A DNA stretch of 61,892 nucleotides from an uncultured Gammaproteobacteria bacterium (GTDB taxonomy: Bacteria; Pseudomonadota; Gammaproteobacteria; JAADHQ01), in assembly GCA_947258755.1 (NCBI GenBank), contig CAMYJO010000013.1, forward strand, positions 1 to 61,892. Direction: 5' to 3'. The notes beneath the pieces are model-generated. The model searched no databases and was not told the DNA's origin. It saw nothing but the letters and a program-made list of their open reading frames with translations. A program made the position numbers and the translations under genes. This document shows positions 13,805 through 23,613 of the stretch, in pieces; positions within the stretch are counted from its first letter, which is position 1, and each line of letters starts with the position of its first letter.

Positions 13805-14524
13805 TCAGGCAGTGGCCGTAATAATAACCAGGTGGCGCTCGGCATCCATACCCGGTACCTGCAATGGCTCGACCCTGTCTATGCGAAACCCTTGCGGTAT
13901 CGATTCTAGTTCTGCGAGCGGGTAGGTCCCTTTCATCGCCAGTATCACCGCGTCCTCGGACAATAAGTGCTGGACACCTGCGATCAGGTTTTCTATGGCG
14001 CTATAGGCCCTTGCGGTCACGGTATCGAAACGTTGCTCGGACTGGAATGCCTCCACTCTATCGGTAACAACGCTGACATTTTCCAGCCCCATTTCCGTAA
14101 CCGCCTGCTGGATGAAACGTGTTTTCTTATTGTTACTGTCCAACAGTGTGAAATGCAGTTGTGGGTTCAAAATGGCCAGTGGTATTCCCGGCAGGCCGGC
14201 ACCACTGCCGACGTCCAGTATCTGCTGACCCTGCAGGAAAGGATGGATAACAATAGAATCCAGTATGTGCCGAGTCAGCATCAGCTTGACGTCACGCACC
14301 GAGGTCAGGTTGTAGACCCCGTTCCATTTGTGTAGCAACAGAACGAACTGCACAAAGCGTACGGCCGCAGCCTCGGGCACGCTGAAGGGCAGGGCAGTCA
14401 GTTGTTCGCCCAACAACCGTTGCAATGTATCCGCATCGACACCGGCATCCGCAGCGTGCTTGCGCTGGTGACGCTTATGATTTCTGGACAGGTTCATTCG
14501 TACATCAGGGTTTGGTGGCAACAT
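13805..14524 (-). CDS. rsmG: 16S rRNA (guanine527-N7) methyltransferase RsmG
   Basis: A 239-residue RsmG (GidB), which methylates G527 of 16S rRNA using SAM. The Rossmann SAM-binding motif is ILDVGSGAGLPGIPLA and the acidic turn is LLDSNNKK. The start at 14524 overlaps the DUF302 stop by 20 bases; a Met ten codons in (14497) gives a protein closer to the family length. No clear Shine-Dalgarno decides between them. It is normally next to mnmG, but here about 9 kb of other genes intervene. Confidence 0.95.
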   Translation of the reverse strand: MLPPNPDVRMNLSRNHKRHQRKHAADAGVDADTLQRLLGEQLTALPFSVPEAAAVRFVQFVLLLHKWNGVYNLTSVRDVKLMLTRHILDSIVIHPFLQGQQILDVGSGAGLPGIPLAILNPQLHFTLLDSNNKKTRFIQQAVTEMGLENVSVVTDRVEAFQSEQRFDTVTARAYSAIENLIAGVQHLLSEDAVILAMKGTYPLAELESIPQGFRIDRVEPLQVPGMDAERHLVIITATA

Positions 14525-14957
14525 CCGAGAATTTATTCAGCGCGCCTGTCATTTTAGCGACAATCTTTTCGCGATCATCAATGTCATGGCGTTTGGCAAG
14601 AAACGCGGGGTTATTATAACTCAACCAGACCTTACCCTTTTCATCTTCCCAGGCCAGTGCCTTCATCGGAAAGTCGATGCCAGCGGTCTGTTGGCTGGTA
14701 AACATGTGACTGCCTAATTTGGGATTACCGAATACCAATAATTCAGTCGGCCTCAATTTGATGCCGGCACCCTTGGCCTTTTCATGATGTGCCCAACGAA
14801 GAGCGATGCCAATACCTTTTTTCTTCAATACATTTTCAAGGCGGTCGATGGTTTCCTTGACACTGAAAGCACTTGGCTTGGTGATTAACCCATGGTCCGC
14901 CAGCGCCAGATTACTCATCAACAGGGTAAATACAATGGCCAATATTTTTATTTTCAT
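14505..14957 (-). CDS. DUF302 domain periplasmic protein
   Basis: A 150-residue protein from the ATG at 14957, chosen because AAGGAGAGAG lies just upstream and it yields a clean signal peptide (KIKILAIVFTLLMSNLALA). The longer reading to 15029 adds 24 unlikely residues. The mature part is a DUF302 domain (KIGIGIALRW-like region, LLVFGNPKLG, PMKALAWED). Such proteins are common and their function is uncharacterised. It overlaps the start of rsmG. Confidence 0.85.
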   Translation of the reverse strand: MKIKILAIVFTLLMSNLALADHGLITKPSAFSVKETIDRLENVLKKKGIGIALRWAHHEKAKGAGIKLRPTELLVFGNPKLGSHMFTSQQTAGIDFPMKALAWEDEKGKVWLSYNNPAFLAKRHDIDDREKIVAKMTGALNKFSDVATKP

Positions 14958-15095: not shown

Positions 15096-16226
15096 TTACA
15101 GCAGCCCCTGTTGATTCAGCCAGACAGCACCACCGACAACCAGCACGGCCACACCGGTGAGCGCCAGCGCGATCTTGATGACACTATAGGGGCGCTCGCC
15201 CTGAATATTGCCGTTCCTGCCATTAACAACAAATCGATAAGTCTTTTTTCGAAACTGGAAACTGGCTGACCATAAGGGTAACAACACATGTTTGAACGTA
15301 GTCTCACTGTGCTGTGTTTGCAAACGGTGAATTTGCTGCTGGTCACCGCCAATACCCCGCCTGACATCGTTACGAATCACATTATCCATCACGGTTTGCG
15401 CCAGGTTAAAACCTTCGTCGAGTTCGACCTGATAGACCTCACTACTGAAGCCACTTAAATAGGCCTCTGAGTACGGCACCAGGTTTTCCAGGTCCCAGGG
15501 TTCAAGCCAATCGGTTATTTTTCTCGGCAAACTGCGTGTTGCACCGATCAGGACGTCATTAAAATGCCTTTGTGTGTGGCCGCTGACCGGTGTCCAGCGA
15601 ATGCGCGGTTCCATACGTGTGCGATTAACACTGCGACCGTTTTCATAACTGGTATAGCTAACCTGTACATAATAAACATCACCGCGCAGACCCGAATAGG
15701 ACGTATCGGTGTAGCTATCGTAGGTCCAGTAGGGAATATAAACACCATTTAGCTGTGAATCCTCACGCGCAAATTCTTTTAACGCACTGGGAGCAAACCA
15801 CAGGCCCGATAACCATTGCCTGTAGTACTCCCTAGCTTGATCGGCGCTGATCGAGAACGGTAATAAAGCCTTGGCCTTGATCGGTTTGATATGGCTGGTG
15901 CTGGTAATGACCGCAGTACCACAAAACGGGCATTCCCCCGCATGGATATGCGCATCGAGTTCAAACTGGGCCGCGCATTGAACACATTTTATGACGTTCT
16001 CTTGCGGCGTAATCAGTTCAGCCCGCTGTAGTTCGCGCAAGGCTGCATGGAAATCCACTTCACGTATCGGCTCGTCGGAACGAACAATGGCATTGCTGTG
16101 GCCGCAATAATTGCACTCCAGCTGACCGCTGCCAACCGCATAGGTCAGCATAGCGCCACATTGCTCACAGGGGTAACGTGTCTCGGTCAGCTCCCGCGTG
16201 GAAAGCTCACCTACTGCGTGATCCAT
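15096..16226 (-). CDS. Double zinc-ribbon protein with C-terminal membrane helix (YdjG-like)
   Basis: A 376-residue protein starting at ATG 16226, one base after the SPFH gene stop; a longer reading to 16352 only runs into that gene. Two zinc ribbons are seen near the N-terminus (CEQCG...CNYCG and CVQCA...CPFCG). A long middle domain with repeated Tyr/Trp follows, then a C-terminal membrane helix (about 350-370). The architecture resembles Bacillus YdjG, whose gene neighbours an SPFH protein in a PspA-associated set. It is last in a ten-gene cluster. I infer that it is a membrane-tethered partner of the SPFH protein; no enzymatic motif is visible. Confidence 0.78.
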   Translation of the reverse strand: MDHAVGELSTRELTETRYPCEQCGAMLTYAVGSGQLECNYCGHSNAIVRSDEPIREVDFHAALRELQRAELITPQENVIKCVQCAAQFELDAHIHAGECPFCGTAVITSTSHIKPIKAKALLPFSISADQAREYYRQWLSGLWFAPSALKEFAREDSQLNGVYIPYWTYDSYTDTSYSGLRGDVYYVQVSYTSYENGRSVNRTRMEPRIRWTPVSGHTQRHFNDVLIGATRSLPRKITDWLEPWDLENLVPYSEAYLSGFSSEVYQVELDEGFNLAQTVMDNVIRNDVRRGIGGDQQQIHRLQTQHSETTFKHVLLPLWSASFQFRKKTYRFVVNGRNGNIQGERPYSVIKIALALTGVAVLVVGGAVWLNQQGLL

Positions 16227-16227
16227 A

Positions 16228-17328
16228 TCAGCTGGACGGTAGTGGTGGCGGCAGGTCCGGTTTAAATTGGTCGCTGAGTGTTGCCACCTCACCGGCAGGT
16301 TTCCATTCGGCCATGCCATTCGCCCACACCAGGGTATCCGTGTTGACCTCACCGTTAAGAATACGTGCGCGCACTTCGTTCAAACTGAATGGGCCGTTGG
16401 CCTCACCGTCAAGGGCGACATGGTATTGCATTAGATGCGGTAAGGGTGGCGGTGTACTCGCGGCCGCCTGACCTGAATCCGATTCCTTGGCCAGTTTATT
16501 GGCCATGGCAAAACCTACACCCAGGCCAATACCATCGGCTGCACCACCGCCCGGATTGCTGGCGGCGGCCTCCATGGCTGCACCCGTTTGATATTTAAGG
16601 TATTTATCCAGATTACCAACCACGCCCATACTGGTGCGTTTATCCAGTGCCTGTTCGACGACGGGTGGCAGCGAGATGTTTTCGACCAGCATCCGGGTCA
16701 ACTCCAGGCCATACTCCTCGAACTCCGGGGCAATGCGATCGGTGAGAAAATCACCTAGCTGGTCATAATTCGCGGCCATGTCCAGCACCGGGATGTCTGC
16801 TGAGGCAATCACAGTGGCAAAGCGTGACGTGATCAGGTTGCGTAACTGATCACTGATTTCCTCGATGGTGAACTGACCATCGGTGCCGACAATCTCACGA
16901 ATGAATTTCAAGGCATCATCGATACGGACCGCGTAGGTGCCAAAGGCACGCAGACGCACCGCACCGAACTCACTGTCGCGCAACATCAATGGGTTTTTCG
17001 TGCCCCACTTCAGGTCAACAAAGCGTTTAGTGTTGCAGAAATAGACCTCGGCTTTGAACGGGCTGTTAAAGCCATGGTCCCAGTGCTGCAAGGTCGTCAA
17101 TATCGGCAGGTTCTTGGTTTCCAGTTCATAGATACCCGGCGACAACACATCGGCGACCTCGCCCTCGTTAACAAATACGGCCACCTGGGTTTCACGTACG
17201 GTCAGTTTGGCGCCATACTTGATTTCATTGCCATAGCGCTCAAAACGATACACCATCGTGTTGCTGCTATCATCGGTCCATTCAATGACATCAACAAATT
17301 CACCAAACAGTTTATCAAACAATCCCAT
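16228..17328 (-). CDS. SPFH (band-7-like) domain protein with C-terminal GYF_2 domain
   Basis: A 366-residue protein of the YdjI-type SPFH family, often misnamed virion core protein. The SPFH region spans about residues 20-245. A Gly/Ala-rich linker follows, then a GYF_2 domain at about 308-355 (YHVALDGEANGPFSLNEV ... TLVWANGMAEW). There is no N-terminal membrane helix, so it is probably peripherally membrane associated. The start is supported by GGGGAGC overlapping the TelA stop. It is tightly packed between telA and the zinc-ribbon gene, suggesting a common complex. Confidence 0.86.
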   Translation of the reverse strand: MGLFDKLFGEFVDVIEWTDDSSNTMVYRFERYGNEIKYGAKLTVRETQVAVFVNEGEVADVLSPGIYELETKNLPILTTLQHWDHGFNSPFKAEVYFCNTKRFVDLKWGTKNPLMLRDSEFGAVRLRAFGTYAVRIDDALKFIREIVGTDGQFTIEEISDQLRNLITSRFATVIASADIPVLDMAANYDQLGDFLTDRIAPEFEEYGLELTRMLVENISLPPVVEQALDKRTSMGVVGNLDKYLKYQTGAAMEAAASNPGGGAADGIGLGVGFAMANKLAKESDSGQAAASTPPPLPHLMQYHVALDGEANGPFSLNEVRARILNGEVNTDTLVWANGMAEWKPAGEVATLSDQFKPDLPPPLPSS

Positions 17329-17331
17329 AAT

Positions 17332-18516
17332 CTAGCTCCCCTGTGTGCTGCCTGTACCCGCTTCGGGCTTGGCGCGAGCGTGGGCCGAAGTCAGTGATTG
17401 CTTCAATTCTGATTCCAGTTTCAGCAATTGCGATTCGGCTTCGACGCGACGTCGTTTGCCTTCATCGGCGATTTGCAGGCTTTCTTCGATAGTCGCAATC
17501 AGGTTGGCATTGGCACGTTTGATGGACTCAATATCATAAATTCCACGTTCCATTTGTTCACGCACTTCACGGTTGGCTTCACGCAGATTTTCAGCATTTT
17601 TTTCCAGTAATTCATTGGTCAGGTCGGATGCCGCCTTGACGTCCTTGGCCGCCGCGGCCGAACGATAAATGGTGACCGCTTGTGCCAGTTGCTGGCGCCA
17701 TAAGGGTACGGTATTGACCAAGGTCGAGTTTATTTTATTGACCAGTCCCTTATCGTTTTCCTGAACCAGACGGATACTGGGCAGGCCCTGCATAGCCACC
17801 TGGCGCGTCAGCTTGAGGTCGTGGACACGGCGTTCCAGGTCATCGCGGTCGGTACGTATATCACGCAGCTCCTGCGCCTTGAGCACGTCCTCGCTGTTCT
17901 TTGCCATCTGTTCGAAATCAGGAATGATTTCGGATTCGATTACGCGCAGTTGTTCTTCGCCAGCGGAAATATACAGCTCCAGCTTATGGAAATAGTCCAG
18001 GTTGGCGGTATACAGTTTATCGAGTGAGGTAATGTCACGCAGCAATGTCGTTTTGTGCCCTTCGAGGTTGTCCGTGATGACGTCGATCTGTTTGCGCACA
18101 CCTTCGTATTGCTGGATAAATTTGGCTACCGGTGTCATGCCACCAAACAATTTAACAAACATGTGTTTGAAAAAACCGTGCTTCTTGTTCGGGTCCAGCT
18201 CATCAACATCAAATCCACGCAACACCGTCACCATGTCGTTGAGTGAACTCCCCGCTGTACCCAGGTCCTTGTTGCGTACGCCTTCAAGCATGCTATCGGA
18301 TATGGTCGTTAACTGTTCCTGCGCTTTGCTGCCGAAAAAGATAATTGAATTTGTATCTTTCAGGTCAATTTCTTTCATCAGGCTTTCGATGATTTGTTTT
18401 TTCGAGCCGTCCGCCTGTGAATAGGCTACCAGGTCGCTACTCACTTCCGGTAATAGTTCTGTGCCTGGCAGGGCGGATATCTCCTGATTAGGATGTTCTG
18501 TGTGCGTGCTTGTCAT
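17332..18516 (-). CDS. telA: TelA family toxic-anion-resistance protein
   Basis: A 394-residue mainly helical protein of the TelA (toxic anion resistance) family, with long coiled-coil stretches and the VNTVPLWRQQLAQAVTIYR segment (written in part: VPLWRQQLAQA) typical of the family. Family members are linked to tellurite and cell-envelope antibiotic tolerance by poorly known means. A GAGGAG site lies 10 bases upstream of the ATG. It follows an XpaC gene, a frequent pairing in bacteria, and precedes the SPFH gene by three bases. Confidence 0.9.
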   Translation of the reverse strand: MTSTHTEHPNQEISALPGTELLPEVSSDLVAYSQADGSKKQIIESLMKEIDLKDTNSIIFFGSKAQEQLTTISDSMLEGVRNKDLGTAGSSLNDMVTVLRGFDVDELDPNKKHGFFKHMFVKLFGGMTPVAKFIQQYEGVRKQIDVITDNLEGHKTTLLRDITSLDKLYTANLDYFHKLELYISAGEEQLRVIESEIIPDFEQMAKNSEDVLKAQELRDIRTDRDDLERRVHDLKLTRQVAMQGLPSIRLVQENDKGLVNKINSTLVNTVPLWRQQLAQAVTIYRSAAAAKDVKAASDLTNELLEKNAENLREANREVREQMERGIYDIESIKRANANLIATIEESLQIADEGKRRRVEAESQLLKLESELKQSLTSAHARAKPEAGTGSTQGS

Positions 18517-18574
18517 GACTTGTGACTCCTCTTGCTTGGCATTTTTTTAACAGCTACGGGCTCGTTTTTACTGC

Positions 18575-19417
18575 TCAGGAAACCCCTTCCTTTTCCAACT
18601 GCATTTGTAATACTTCTATCTGAACTTCCAGTTCGGTTGCATTGTTCTCCAATAATTTTTCCTGTTGCTCAGCGATGACTGTTTCTATGGTGTCGAGAAC
18701 GCGACGAAAATTAGCATCCAGTTCGACAGAATCCAGCTGCTTGTGTGCATGCGCATACCCGGCGGTGACTTGCTGGGCGCCATCGAGATAAACCTTTAGA
18801 AATTTGCGCGCGCGGCGTGCATCGCGCGGGTCTTCTTCAATGGTGCTGAGTATATTTCTGGCCTCACTAATGATACGTCGCAGGCGGTCCTTGAGTTCCT
18901 GGTTGTGTATTTTTGCGCGCGCATCCTCGATGCCGGCAATCCTGGTTTCCGCTTCCTCCAGTAGTTCTAGCACTTCTTCGGAGGTGATGCCGATAGCGGC
19001 AACATTCGGATTGCGACGTGCCGGATCAAAACCATAATAAAGATAAAAACCGATATAGGCAGCAAGACCTAACAGCAGACTGACCAGCGTGCCATTACCA
19101 ATGGCAATCTTGGAGGTGAAAGCAATGCCGATGCCTAGCACGATAGCGCCCAACATTTTGTAGGGCAGGGTGCTGCTACGGCGCACGATCTTACGTTTTT
19201 TCGCTTGCGCCTCGATGGCGATGCCCTTGCGCGCCAGGGTCGCCGCGGTCATGGCCAGCACAAAACCGATGCCACTGCCTACCGCCAGTTGCAGGTTGTC
19301 ATTCAGCAAGGCGATCAACGTCGCAGGCAATAACGGCAACGGCAACAGATATAACAGGATGCCACGCAGCTGGTACCTGGAGGGCTTGGTGTTATCTGGG
19401 GAATATCGCTTGACCAT
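18575..19417 (-). CDS. XpaC-like membrane protein (TelA partner)
   Basis: A 280-residue protein. Four predicted membrane helices lie in about residues 18-135, as two hairpins. A cytoplasmic helical domain follows (about 150-280) with the FDPARRNPNVAAIGIT motif and long coiled coil. It fits the XpaC / 5-bromo-4-chloroindolyl phosphate hydrolysis family, a name that reflects a screening phenotype and not a proven activity. It is adjacent to telA, as often seen, and 21 bases downstream of a 29-codon membrane peptide gene. Confidence 0.84.
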   Translation of the reverse strand: MVKRYSPDNTKPSRYQLRGILLYLLPLPLLPATLIALLNDNLQLAVGSGIGFVLAMTAATLARKGIAIEAQAKKRKIVRRSSTLPYKMLGAIVLGIGIAFTSKIAIGNGTLVSLLLGLAAYIGFYLYYGFDPARRNPNVAAIGITSEEVLELLEEAETRIAGIEDARAKIHNQELKDRLRRIISEARNILSTIEEDPRDARRARKFLKVYLDGAQQVTAGYAHAHKQLDSVELDANFRRVLDTIETVIAEQQEKLLENNATELEVQIEVLQMQLEKEGVS

Positions 19418-19438
19418 ATGTCGTCTTCCGTTACCTTA

Positions 19439-19528
19439 TTATATGGAGAACAGCGCCTGCCATGAGATCATGCCGGTGCTGGCAATCAACAGAATCAAGC
19501 CAATGGTTTTTTTTAGCGTTACAGGCAT
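19439..19528 (-). CDS. 29-residue single-helix membrane peptide
   Basis: ATG at 19528 is preceded by GAAGGGGAG, a strong ribosome site seven bases away. It encodes 29 residues: a short basic start (VTLKKT), one hydrophobic helix (GLILLIASTGMI) and a brief tail ending at TAA 21 bases before xpaC. Size, ribosome site, hydropathy and position all argue for a genuine small protein cotranscribed with xpaC-telA-SPFH. The family is unknown. Confidence 0.6.
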   Translation of the reverse strand: MPVTLKKTIGLILLIASTGMISWQALFSI

Positions 19529-19738
19529 GCCAAACTCCCCTTCAATATGTATAGTCAATGATACTTAAAACAGTACTGGATGAGTGCGCTAAAGCGTTAA
19601 CTTTTGTAAGAATATAACGCTATTGGCCTAGCTGACATTTAATCATAGCATTATCCAGTTTATTGTTCTTTCAGGTGCGCCACTACAATTTCACAATATA
19701 TTCAATTAGATAGTTCACGCCCGTCAAAAACCCGTCTA

Positions 19739-21289
19739 TTAATGAAACCACTTGTTCCAACCCTTCTCGTAATAACGCAGTAGTTTATGCGTTTGCAGCA
19801 CATTGAGATCGGTGTCTACGCTGCTCATGTCTGGGGCAAATACCGGCATCGTTGCCAGGGTCTGTGCATTCAGATAACGTGTTTTCTGATTCAACTTGAT
19901 CGACGACCAGTCAATGCGTTGTGCCGAGGCCAGGATAAAGCCCCATTCACCAAAGGTCGGCACATAACTATGATAGGGCAGTAGCTGCCAGTTGGCGTTG
20001 CGACTAAAGCGGGATTGAGTTGCCTGCATGGTGTTGTGGATACACCAGAATGCCTCACGTGCATACAGCGGCGAGGTCGCCTGCGTGACCAGCATGCCAT
20101 CAATTGCCAGGCGGGCCGACAGCATGCTGTAGAAACTACGTGTGTAGAGCTTGCTGATGCCGATATCATTTGGGTCCGGCAGGTCGATAATGATCACATC
20201 ATAGAACTGTTTATCCTGCTCGATAAATTTCCACGCGTCCTGGTTAACAATGCGCAGGCGTTCATCGACCAGGGCATGTTTATTGAGTTCGGCCAGCATC
20301 GGATTGTCGCGGAACAGGCGTGTCATCTCACTGTCGAGGTCGACGAGCACAACCTGGCCAACATCGTTGTATTTGAGCACTTCCCTGGCAGCCATGCCGT
20401 CTCCACCACCGAGGATCAAGATACTGTTATGTCGTCGGCTTAAGGCCATGGCCGGGTGGACCAGCGATTCATGATAACGGTATTCGTCCAGGCTATTGAA
20501 TTGTAATTGGCCGTTTAAATGGAGGCTGATGCTTTCACCATCACGCGTCAGTACAATATTCTGATAGGGCGTTGTCTTCGAAAAAATTATTTCACCAGTA
20601 TAGAGTCGATTCTGGAAAAAACCGGTCAAGCTGTTCACTAATATGAAGCCTGCGATTAATAACAATCCAGTACAGCCAATCATAACGATCAGTAATTTTC
20701 GTATCTGGATATGGCGATAAAAAACATACAGGCCGAGCATGGCGACAAAACAGTTTAAGGAGCCAAATAATAATGCGCTGCGAAACAGCCCCAGCTGCGG
20801 TACTAACACCAGTGGAAACAGTAGTGAGGCGGCCAATGCGCCGATATAGTCGGCGGTCAGTACATTGGAAACATTGAGTCGCAGTATCCTGTATTCCTTC
20901 AATAGACGAATGACGATCGGTATTTCCAGGCCCACCATGGCACCGATCATTACCGTGATAATGAATAAAAAAATCTGGTAGTTGTCGAGGTGACTAAAGG
21001 CAAAGAACAGCAAATAGGCACTAAAGCCGCCGAGCAGTGCTATGGCGCATTGAACCAGTATAAAGGTTTCGGCCAGCCGTTCGCTGACATAACGTGATAA
21101 AAATGAACCAACGCCCATGGCCGCCATGAACAATCCGATCACCAGGGAAAACTGCAGTACGGAATTGCCAAGCAGGTAGCTGGAAATCGTGCCCGCCAGT
21201 AATTCGTATATCAATCCGCATATAGCAATGATCAATGTCGAAAACAGCAGTACCGCATTGGCGCGATTGGGTGATAGCTCCTGTGCCAT
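19739..21289 (-). CDS. Membrane-anchored spermidine-synthase-like aminopropyltransferase
   Basis: A 516-residue protein. Residues about 15-225 form seven or so membrane helices. The remainder is a spermidine synthase/SAM-fold domain with YHESLVHPAM, ILILGGGDGMAARE (SAM-binding), VVLVDLDSEM and the catalytic-loop Asp in DLPDPND. Known soluble relatives transfer aminopropyl groups from decarboxylated SAM to putrescine; whether this fused form does so is unknown. No SAM decarboxylase gene is in the cluster. It follows the DUF350 gene by 30 bases. Confidence 0.87.
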   Translation of the reverse strand: MAQELSPNRANAVLLFSTLIIAICGLIYELLAGTISSYLLGNSVLQFSLVIGLFMAAMGVGSFLSRYVSERLAETFILVQCAIALLGGFSAYLLFFAFSHLDNYQIFLFIITVMIGAMVGLEIPIVIRLLKEYRILRLNVSNVLTADYIGALAASLLFPLVLVPQLGLFRSALLFGSLNCFVAMLGLYVFYRHIQIRKLLIVMIGCTGLLLIAGFILVNSLTGFFQNRLYTGEIIFSKTTPYQNIVLTRDGESISLHLNGQLQFNSLDEYRYHESLVHPAMALSRRHNSILILGGGDGMAAREVLKYNDVGQVVLVDLDSEMTRLFRDNPMLAELNKHALVDERLRIVNQDAWKFIEQDKQFYDVIIIDLPDPNDIGISKLYTRSFYSMLSARLAIDGMLVTQATSPLYAREAFWCIHNTMQATQSRFSRNANWQLLPYHSYVPTFGEWGFILASAQRIDWSSIKLNQKTRYLNAQTLATMPVFAPDMSSVDTDLNVLQTHKLLRYYEKGWNKWFH

Positions 21290-21318
21290 TCTATAATCTA
21301 TCCGATCTTTGTCATTGC

Positions 21319-21543
21319 TTAACTGATCGCAGCAGATATAATCAAGCCGATGGCGATGACGACAGAACCGATAATAACGCCCAAGGCGACATTATGATCT
21401 TCACTGATCTCCTTATGAATTTGATAAGGCGTCAGGATGTCGATAATTTTATAGGCCAGTATAAATATGACAATGCCGATCACACTATAAACAATTGACG
21501 ATAAGATCGGCCCAATATGCAGTTCATTAATAATTTGTTCCAT
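21319..21543 (-). CDS. DUF350 membrane protein (YjfL-like)
   Basis: A 74-residue protein with two membrane helices (about 12-33 and 50-72) joined by a polar loop ending in HKEISEDHNVALG, the DUF350 signature. A good AGGAG precedes the ATG. Related E. coli YjfL lies in a PspA-like gene set, and DUF350 genes often neighbour polyamine-type enzymes and DUF4178. Function unknown; a role in membrane stress is inference from context. Confidence 0.86.
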   Translation of the reverse strand: MEQIINELHIGPILSSIVYSVIGIVIFILAYKIIDILTPYQIHKEISEDHNVALGVIIGSVVIAIGLIISAAIS

Positions 21544-21568
21544 CGTTAGCTCCTATGTTGCTGTAACT

Positions 21569-21733
21569 TTATTTTCCGGTATGGGTACGGCCAACACCAC
21601 GCAGACCACCATGCGCGCTGCCTTCGCGACTGCTTTTTTTAATGCTCGGTTCCATCACCCCCATATCATTGACGGTAACGTAAATTGCGCCGATGGTGAG
21701 CACAGTAAAGAGGATAAACACCAGCCTAGTCAT
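21569..21733 (-). CDS. Small single-helix membrane protein, unknown
   Basis: A 54-residue protein if started at ATG 21733, within an ATGATGATG run that overlaps the stop of the DUF4178 gene; an open frame to 21772 is longer but less likely. One N-terminal helix (RLVFILFTVLTIGAIYV) is followed by a Ser/Gly/basic tail. Family not recognised. It occupies the position between DUF4178 and DUF350 and is probably translationally coupled to the former. Confidence 0.6.
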   Translation of the reverse strand: MTRLVFILFTVLTIGAIYVTVNDMGVMEPSIKKSSREGSAHGGLRGVGRTHTGK

Positions 21734-23012
21734 CATCATCCTCGCTATAGGCACTCCAACGTCGGCTCTCAAACGAAAACCTTCTTATCGCAAGACTACT
21801 CAATGCCAACAGACTGACAATGACCATCGCGATGAAATAACGGGAGACAATCACACCCTCTTTGATACTGATATAGAGCGTCTTTTGTTGTGCCTTGTTA
21901 CCGCGTTCGCCGGTGCCGCCTTCTGCAAACACACGCATACTGTATTCGCCGGCCTCCGGCACTTTAAAATAAGTACTGACGCTACGCGAACCTTCACTCC
22001 AGCTCTCACCACCTTCATAACCGTGATAATAGGAAATCTGTTTGGCTAAGGAGAACACCGGAGACTGGTCTTTTTCGACGACAATGTCCAGCCAGGTCCA
22101 GGCATTGCTCAGGTTTAGAGATAAGTTCAACTTGACCAGCCGCTCAGGTTTTGTGATCTGAAACTGTTGTGTCAACACCCCATCTTCCTGCAGATAGTCC
22201 TGCGCGGATAACGCGGTCCGCAGCACCCTGTTACCCGAACCCATGATCAACGCCAGTAGTAATAATACAATCGATACCGGCACAAAAAACTTGCCGGCCA
22301 CGACCAGGCCTTTGATAAAGCCACTAGGAATATAGGGCTGCGCTGCATGGATTCCGCGAGGCTTGCGATAGCTTTCAGGCATGTCGAAGGCCTGCTTCAT
22401 TACCTCGAAGGGCAGGTATTCGCTTACGGAGTATTCCTGTTCGGTGGCGGTTTTTTCCAGGCTATACGCATAGGGCGGGGCTATGCCTTCGATCAAATTA
22501 ACAACATCATTCTTCTCAGCACGCCATGTCAATTCGCCTTCCACATACGACACCCTGGCCGAATAATAGTCGATGACCTTATAGGTACGCTCGCGCACCT
22601 TAAATTGTGAACGTGCCAGCTTGATGACCGGGCCCTCCGGCATATCGCGTACTTTATGGCTAAAAATAAAATGACCTTGATCGTACTCGAGCCAGGCATA
22701 GCCATGAGTCGGTGAATAGATTTGATATTCGAGCCAGGATGAGGGGTCATCAATGGTCGTGTATTCAACCACCCCTATAATAGTAAAATCGACACCTTTG
22801 ATTGTACCTGTTTGTCCAATCTTCAGCGGCATATAGGGCCGCTGCACATCAATGTACCTTTTTAAGACGGCGTATTCTTTTTTTGCATCCAGGGTTGTGC
22901 CGCAATAGCCACAGGTGATGGTTTGTATTCTGCGGCCGCCGCCATAGATTGAGACCGGTGCACCGCATTGCGTACAATTGATACTCTTGATCTGTTTATA
23001 GTCCGTAGCCAA
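21726..23012 (-). CDS. DUF4178 protein with N-terminal zinc ribbon and membrane helices
   Basis: A 428-residue protein. An N-terminal zinc ribbon (CTQCGA ... CGYCGT, residues about 11-40) leads into a DUF4178 domain (about 55-200; IKGVDFTIIGVVEY, WLEYQIYSP). A membrane helix lies near 240-262, then a beta-rich probable extracytoplasmic region, and a last helix near 395-412. DUF4178 proteins accompany DUF350 and aminopropyltransferase-like genes in several bacteria; function unproven. It starts one base after the stop of another DUF4178 gene. Confidence 0.82.
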   Translation of the reverse strand: MATDYKQIKSINCTQCGAPVSIYGGGRRIQTITCGYCGTTLDAKKEYAVLKRYIDVQRPYMPLKIGQTGTIKGVDFTIIGVVEYTTIDDPSSWLEYQIYSPTHGYAWLEYDQGHFIFSHKVRDMPEGPVIKLARSQFKVRERTYKVIDYYSARVSYVEGELTWRAEKNDVVNLIEGIAPPYAYSLEKTATEQEYSVSEYLPFEVMKQAFDMPESYRKPRGIHAAQPYIPSGFIKGLVVAGKFFVPVSIVLLLLALIMGSGNRVLRTALSAQDYLQEDGVLTQQFQITKPERLVKLNLSLNLSNAWTWLDIVVEKDQSPVFSLAKQISYYHGYEGGESWSEGSRSVSTYFKVPEAGEYSMRVFAEGGTGERGNKAQQKTLYISIKEGVIVSRYFIAMVIVSLLALSSLAIRRFSFESRRWSAYSEDDDD

Positions 23013-23013
23013 A

Positions 23014-23613
23014 TCAGAGCGGCTCTATGTCAAAGGCATCGATCCACACACCTTTATATAGTTTTTTCTGCCCTTCAAAACACTCAAGTGTGTATAAAAT
23101 GTTGTGCTTGCCGGAAAGATGTACATAATCATGCTTCTCGCCCGGCATAATACGTTCAGGCAATTGACCTGACACGGCAATGCATTCAGCGCTATCTACT
23201 TCAGTGACCAACAGGTTTTGCTTGAGTAAATTAATTTTTTCGCCAGGTTTGAGATATTTACACCCAGGCAGGTCCTTGATATTTTCCAGCGCTGACTCGA
23301 TCGCTATATCGCCTTCATCCACACTAATCCATTTGCCGTCACCAGCATCGGTCATGACCCACCATTCTTCCCAAAGCCCATCACCGTAATCAAATTGCAA
23401 GCGGCCGATGGTTTCGAAATTCATATTGCGGTAACGGTAATGTCTGCCTAAGGTAAAGATCGAGGGCGCATCGACCTGCGCCGAGCGCAGGCCAGCATTC
23501 TTAACGGCCTCATCCTCAATAAACAGGATGTTACTGCAATGTTCACACACCATCAGTTTGGTAAAATCAAGATTGTCAGGCGTTTGTGCGCCGCAGGCAG
23601 GGCAATTAAACAT
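23014..23613 (-). CDS. DUF4178 protein with N-terminal zinc ribbon
   Basis: A 199-residue soluble protein, first gene of the 15.1-23.6 kb cluster. It has a zinc ribbon (CPACGA ... CEHCSN, residues 4-27) and a DUF4178 domain (about 50-190; FETIGRLQFDYGDGLWEEWW, given in part as FETIGRLQF). It lacks the membrane helices of its neighbour, suggesting a soluble/anchored pair. It has no close upstream gene (184 bases to mnmG), so a promoter probably lies in that gap. Confidence 0.8.
   Translation of the reverse strand: MFNCPACGAQTPDNLDFTKLMVCEHCSNILFIEDEAVKNAGLRSAQVDAPSIFTLGRHYRYRNMNFETIGRLQFDYGDGLWEEWWVMTDAGDGKWISVDEGDIAIESALENIKDLPGCKYLKPGEKINLLKQNLLVTEVDSAECIAVSGQLPERIMPGEKHDYVHLSGKHNILYTLECFEGQKKLYKGVWIDAFDIEPL

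Follow-up and report, generated by a model that had tools for sequence, protein, structure and literature searches.

Operons that join DUF4178 and DUF350 proteins to a spermidine synthase with transmembrane (TM) helices have been described with PspA, along with PspA-free variants and a band-7/SHOCT variant with an AdoMet decarboxylase and a polyamine oxidase, and aminopropylation of unknown substrates has been proposed (Ravi et al. 2024, PMC11237479). Both the PspA-free and the band-7 variants are therefore already published; a search of the main text of that paper turned up neither TelA nor GYF. In Bacillus subtilis, YdjI and YdjG are needed for PspA localisation (PMC8581546). The xpaC-yaaN operon belongs to the core sigma-W regulon (PMC3498285), and a mutant of lmo1967, which encodes TelA, is cited in PMC12791056 as more sensitive to nisin. 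Here we analyze a ten-gene cluster of an uncultured Gammaproteobacteria bacterium (assembly GCA_947258755.1), located in a stretch of 61,892 nucleotides (nt) of contig CAMYJO010000013.1, hereafter the window. Module 1 of the cluster comprises two zinc-ribbon (Zn-ribbon) DUF4178 proteins, a small TM protein, DUF350 and a membrane-embedded aminopropyltransferase (TM-SpeE). Module 2 comprises a 29-residue peptide (pep29), XpaC, TelA, an SPFH protein and a Zn-ribbon membrane protein (ZnR-TM). An earlier reading of the DNA, the original prediction, took all ten genes for one PspA-independent membrane-protection system. Our readings rest on sequence analysis throughout, and counts across sampled genomes ignore relatedness.

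The ten genes read as two merged operons

We confirmed the ten genes in the order first described, all on the minus strand from 23613 to 15096, and both tiny membrane proteins among them are real genes. Intergenic gaps range from -8 to 58 nt, save for 184 nt after mnmG and 210 nt between the aminopropyltransferase and the 29-residue peptide. The 210-nt gap is the meeting point of the two modules. The predicted division of the cluster held up, as did its placement between rsmG and mnmG.

A genome of the same genus, G003, shows the order rsmG, an open reading frame (ORF) of 150 amino acids (aa), ZnR-TM, SPFH, TelA, XpaC, pep29 and mnmG, with module 1 absent. Protein identity between the window and G003 is 76-92% for MnmG, XpaC, SPFH, ZnR-TM and the 150-aa ORF, and 73% for RsmG. 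Nucleotide homology between the two covers mnmG, is lost over the approximately 4.2 kb that module 1 occupies and picks up again in the gap that precedes pep29. The 210-nt junction (19529..19738, minus strand) aligns with the G003 mnmG-pep29 spacer, and the resident promoter of module 2 probably lies in this region. The simplest reading is that a module 1 cassette of about 4.2 kb was inserted between mnmG and the upstream region of a resident operon. No insertion repeats were evident flanking the cassette. Promoter and terminator scans gave matches near chance level, which we did not take as positive evidence.

Each module also exists without the other, and G003 lacks the cassette at this site. 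Among the 369 sampled genomes of the class, the joined ten-gene arrangement occurs only in the window, and module 2 stands alone in G003 and in about 15 others. Because module 2 is found alone in G003 and its upstream region is kept between the modules, we read the ten genes as two operons merged at the species level, each of a known kind, and not as one operon. On this point the original prediction, which had treated the ten genes as one system, was not supported.

A lysine-ended tail protein accompanies TM-SpeE

Each of the 36 operons with TM-SpeE (35 plus the window) encodes a protein with a membrane or lipid anchor and a lysine-ended tail in which Gly, Ser and Arg usually abound; G521, which has no TM-SpeE, was left out of this count. 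An automatic scan requiring a TM segment, at least 36% G/S/R in the last 25 residues and a terminal lysine returned exactly one ORF per locus in 30 of the 35 loci; the 20 control loci gave none. In the five loci that it missed (L017, L019, L101, L106 and L110), the tail protein lies just below the composition cut-off and was identified by inspection, as was the window copy that prompted the search. The criterion was set after the first examples had been seen, and these counts therefore describe a strong pattern and not a pre-registered test. Among the other ORFs of TM-SpeE loci, 17 of 430 end in lysine.

The form of the tail protein varies. In most loci it is a separate protein of 45-100 aa, in Burkholderiales-like genomes it is the C terminus of a double-DUF4178 protein, and in Alteromonas, G398, G141 and G002 it forms the last part of a larger protein that is exported or sits in the membrane. 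The terminal lysine is encoded by both AAA and AAG and is followed by any of the three stop codons, which indicates that selection acts on the amino acid. In the window, this part falls to the small single-TM protein of 54 aa (21569..21733, minus strand), whose Gly/Ser/Arg-rich tail ends in GVGRTHTGK. Three in-frame ATGs in a row (21739/21736/21733) overlap the stop of the gene before it, and one of them is the start, which makes the protein 54 aa long or slightly longer. A homologue in G301, 50% identical over 40 aa, supports it as a real gene.

Since an invariant lysine here sits on a flexible tether, we regard the C-terminal lysine of the tail as a candidate aminopropyl acceptor of TM-SpeE, a proposal whose chances we place somewhat short of even. 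Polyamine-type modification of lysine has precedents in hypusine and in silaffins. The conserved lysine-ended tail of TM-SpeE operons is the new point of this analysis; its other lasting point is the apparent exchange of PspA, SPFH and TelA around one core.

TM-SpeE retains the motifs of an aminopropyltransferase

The window TM-SpeE (19739..21289, minus strand; 516 aa) combines an N-terminal region of seven predicted TM helices with a Spermine_synth domain (PF01564, 119 bits), and scores 633 bits against NF002956, 'polyamine aminopropyltransferase' (PRK03612), for which the cut-off is 472. It aligns with solved thermospermine and spermidine synthases, thermospermine synthase being the best structure match. 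The motifs DExxYHE, GGGDG and DxPDP are intact. Aminopropyl chemistry, as first suggested for this locus, is thus likely from the catalytic motifs. The acceptor-side motif is D-L-P-D-P, set against what we take to be D-C-T-D-P in Escherichia coli SpeE, a comparison that serves for orientation only.

The structure model of TM-SpeE, with a predicted local distance difference test score (pLDDT) of 54, was used for no more than a rough estimate of the number of TM helices. Charge bias across the seven predicted helices favours an N-in/C-out topology, and the tail proteins (lipoproteins, signal anchors and single TM helices after cytoplasmic domains) also look C-out. We speculate that the catalytic domain and the lysine tail are both periplasmic.

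Neither PspA nor a decarboxylase of S-adenosylmethionine (SAM) was found in the window. The original prediction was correct in this respect for the window and not for the genome, which carries a PspA-family gene and the decarboxylase on other contigs. Its only PspA-family gene (54.6 bits, 198 aa) is on contig C3, and SpeD is encoded at C6:102276. An ordinary SpeE-like protein is also encoded elsewhere in the genome. With SpeD and this second SpeE-like protein, the cell should have decarboxylated SAM (dcSAM) at its disposal, and its ordinary spermidine synthesis is probably provided for. After the PspA-family gene on C3 (L023:7956-10305) come genes for a membrane protein of 197 aa and a protein with a VWA domain, and a response regulator gene lies upstream in divergent orientation. 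A similar PspA-family match, likewise short, occurs in G301.

PspA, SPFH and TelA appear around the same core

Of the sampled genomes, 5 of 369 in the class and 26 of 398 in the phylum have DUF4178, in loci of two kinds. One has a single DUF4178 beside PspA (G374, G380, G386 and G141; in G377, PspA is 3.8 kb off). The second kind, with a pair of Zn-ribbon DUF4178 domains, comprises 22 genomes, a set that takes in the window, G070, G301 and a Riflebacteria metagenome-assembled genome. None of these 22 has PspA at the locus: 12 have no match to it at all, one has a sub-threshold match and nine have it elsewhere in the genome. The PspA-independence of this operon type, already predicted, was therefore corroborated, and the idea that PspA is the generally missing member of tandem-DUF4178 operons was rejected.

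SPFH of the Band_7_1 type, scoring 159 bits or more, is encoded in all 22 tandem-DUF4178 genomes and in one of seven with single or other DUF4178 (Fisher 1.5e-5); in 12 of the 22, it is encoded directly upstream of DUF4178. Likewise, in the class sample strong Band_7_1 matches occur in 4/4 tandem-DUF4178 genomes and in 18/365 others (Fisher 1e-5). Co-occurrence of SPFH and DUF4178 within family f223 was rejected as evidence, since 173 of its 198 genomes (approximately 87%) have SPFH at E<=0.001.

In our tree, TM-SpeE from PspA-free operons falls into a single clade (95/95; 96% of bootstraps), separate from PspA-linked TM-SpeE, and the window protein is sister to that of G301. Relatives of TM-SpeE occur on large plasmids, and none was found in phage records; a single-sequence scan of genome contigs returned only one relative. 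A plasmid of Novosphingobium sp. ES2-1 is annotated with SPFH, DUF4178, DUF4178, a small hypothetical protein, DUF350, polyamine aminopropyltransferase, FAD oxidoreductase and speD, and a flavin amine oxidase is also present in many related operons. TelA lies inside a TM-SpeE/DUF350/DUF4178 operon in two other lineages, an Alteromonas mediterranea plasmid and G398. The Alteromonas plasmid locus (L113:5947-12605) encodes TM-SpeE, SpeD, a 169-aa TM protein, TelA, DUF4178, a lipoprotein-like protein ending in SSGK, and DUF350. In G002, of the same genus as the window, a PspA/YjfI-type operon (L021:217-7468) carries SpeD, TM-SpeE, DUF350 and a lipoprotein ending in lysine.

By their gene content, G002 and the window place PspA-linked and PspA-free flavours in one genus. 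Module 1 of the window has no SPFH of its own, and the adjoining operon has one. Together, these arrangements suggest that PspA, Band_7_1 SPFH and TelA take the same slot around a DUF4178/DUF350/TM-SpeE core, and we infer that the three are functionally equivalent. The original prediction had counted regular separation of the modules, or a pspA gene elsewhere in the genome, against itself. The modules are usually apart and the genome does hold a PspA-family gene, and its objection to itself is half borne out. Yet the link between the modules should not be dismissed: SPFH adjoins module 1 in 12 sampled genomes and TelA does so in two other lineages.

The remaining module 1 proteins are the following. 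A cytoplasmic Zn-ribbon and DUF4178 protein of 199 aa (23014..23613, minus strand; PF13785, 39.8 bits) has two CxxC motifs. The second Zn-ribbon and DUF4178 protein, of 428 aa (21726..23012, minus strand; PF13785, 58.3 bits), has two TM helices around a beta-rich region in the TM scan, and a motif scan found GGESWSEG in it and in some homologues. DUF350 is of the short, YjfL-like form with two TM helices (74 aa; 21319..21543, minus strand; PF03994, 52.3 bits). An AlphaFold model of DUF4178, whose confidence is low to moderate (mean pLDDT 65.8), gave no PDB match with E<0.05.

Module 2 is a recurrent operon

In the class sample, TelA adjoins Band_7_1 SPFH in about 17 of 369 genomes, usually with ZnR-TM after the pair and XpaC and a pep29-like ORF before it. 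Module 2 is a recurrent operon, and its type has been connected with tolerance of envelope stress elsewhere.

Pep29 is a single-TM peptide (19439..19528, minus strand). In 13 other loci a counterpart of it is encoded upstream of XpaC, and its nonsynonymous and synonymous divergences from the G003 copy are 0.11 (dN) and 1.01 (dS), a ratio of about 0.11. Because of these counterparts and this divergence, we consider it a genuine gene. Many pep29 homologues (L055, L058, L059, L063, L066 and L070) show a lipobox-like SCQA or SCPA where the window has SWQA, and may be mini-lipoproteins.

XpaC (280 aa; 18575..19417, minus strand; PF10112, 100 bits), a membrane protein, is encoded next to TelA (394 aa; 17332..18516, minus strand; PF05816, 374 bits). 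The window TelA is 53% identical to that of G003 (L057:9405-10526) and 73% identical to that of L056, from another family, which suggests that telA was replaced in one lineage.

The SPFH protein (366 aa; 16228..17328, minus strand) joins Band_7_1 (PF13421, 338 bits) to GYF_2 (PF14237, 65 bits); PPPLP motifs stand ahead of GYF_2 and again at the C terminus. In SPFH proteins of TelA operons, GYF_2 is bracketed by PPPLP-type motifs, in most cases including one at the extreme C terminus, an arrangement that looks like a self-binding device for polymerisation or switching. A literature search on GYF/GltJ found nothing. SPFH tails differ by operon: most TelA operons have GYF_2 with PPPLP-type motifs, the sampled DUF4178 operons SHOCT, G301 a Zn ribbon and G225 HTH_17. 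At L071:7610-8725, a Band_7_1 SPFH protein whose C-terminal domain is HTH_17 is paired with a Zn-ribbon membrane protein.

ZnR-TM (376 aa; 15096..16226, minus strand) is a double Zn-ribbon protein with four CxxC motifs, one C-terminal TM helix and homologues in other copies of module 2. The small, secreted-looking 150-aa ORF shared with G003 (14505-14957) sits between the cluster and rsmG. It resembles the C-terminal part of NF002454 (labelled CrcB), below the cut-off of that NCBIfam model.

A tethered polyamine as a possible product

We propose that the cluster is a composite of a resident five-gene operon and an upstream PspA-free cassette, with a mechanism for the cassette as follows; we give this account an even chance of being correct. 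SpeD, encoded elsewhere in the genome, would make dcSAM, and the membrane-embedded TM-SpeE would attach at least one aminopropyl group to the lysine at the C terminus of the tail protein. This would give a tethered polycation that stabilises the membrane surface or reports on it. Assembly of the complex would fall to the Zn-ribbon DUF4178 proteins and DUF350, and a scaffold of SPFH or TelA, in this case from the neighbouring operon, would fill the place that PspA has in related operons. Extended to the TM-SpeE family, the idea becomes more tentative: a dedicated protein substrate, modified at its terminal lysine, would yield a surface-tethered polyamine, possibly on the outer side of the cytoplasmic membrane, with PspA, SPFH and TelA as interchangeable partners.

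Several points weigh against this account. The terminal lysine could instead serve recognition or assembly. The location of dcSAM in the cytoplasm, set against a catalytic domain and tail predicted to lie outside, poses a problem of supply unless the TM domain of TM-SpeE carries dcSAM, which is speculation. In family f223, where SPFH is usually encoded apart from module 1, its co-occurrence with DUF4178 is uninformative. The window SPFH falls in the clade of TelA operons, outside the DUF4178-linked clade. Strictly speaking, the opposite polarity, with the cassette lost from G003, would also fit the alignment.

Three other explanations were weighed against the composite account. If the ten genes formed one integrated, co-transcribed machine that protects the membrane as a complex without PspA, the common strand, the small gaps, the lack of any reported terminator-like site in the 210-nt junction (minus strand) and the pairing of SPFH and of TelA with module 1 in other lineages would all be expected. 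We consider it unlikely, since the joined order is confined to the window, module 2 stands alone within the genus and the conserved module 2 upstream region is retained between the modules. The recurrence of SPFH and TelA links, arising independently, also bears on the possibility that a mobile cassette landed by chance beside a functionally unrelated TelA-SPFH operon. The insertion-like structure, the TM-SpeE relatives on large plasmids and the clade of the window SPFH are what such an event would leave; given these independent links and the Band_7_1 association in the class sample, we hold a chance landing to be plausible but doubtful.

The third explanation concerns the product. TM-SpeE may make a free polyamine at the membrane, such as spermidine, thermospermine or aminopropylated agmatine, with the lysine tail as a structural or regulatory partner. 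The equivalog match above its cut-off, the thermospermine synthase structure match and the flavin amine oxidase of many related operons agree with this; the separate SpeE-like protein in the genome and the acceptor-side D-L-P-D-P do not, and the constant terminal lysine would be left unexplained. We view a free product as a minority prospect. Polyamine genes recur beside PspA, SPFH and DUF350 genes, and if the tail lysine is indeed the acceptor, the search for the target of aminopropylation gains a specific, one-peptide candidate. The shared slot hints at a common scaffold function of PspA, SPFH and TelA, and TelA, known mainly from tellurite and bacteriocin tolerance, would gain a mechanistic context.

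Comparison with described systems

The closest described operons are those of the second group of Ravi et al. 2024, with CesT/Tir-PspA and a TM-spermidine synthase. They share DUF4178, DUF350 and an N-terminal-TM spermidine synthase with the window, and in our analysis such operons also encode a lysine-ended tail protein. In contrast, the window lacks the CesT/Tir-PspA dyad and has two Zn-ribbon DUF4178 proteins, a short two-TM DUF350 and a TM-SpeE of a separate clade. The PspA-less band-7/SHOCT variant (among the variants of the third group) is likewise PspA-free, SPFH-associated and polyamine-linked, and the DUF4178-SPFH operons found here match it in their SHOCT tails, speD and flavin amine oxidases. 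The window cassette differs, as no SHOCT-SPFH, speD or oxidase is present among the ten genes, and the nearest SPFH is the GYF_2-tailed protein of the TelA operon.

Module 2 can be likened, by anatomy only, to pspA-ydjGHI of B. subtilis (PMC8581546), in which an SPFH protein also stands beside a double Zn-ribbon membrane protein. However, neither PspA nor a TPM-domain YdjH is among the ten proteins of the window, the SPFH protein ends in GYF_2 with PPPLP motifs where that of B. subtilis has a Zn ribbon, and TelA and XpaC are present. With the xpaC-yaaN (TelA) operon of Firmicutes, the window shares XpaC followed by TelA, and extends this pair by the 29-aa TM peptide, SPFH-GYF_2 and the Zn-ribbon TM protein.

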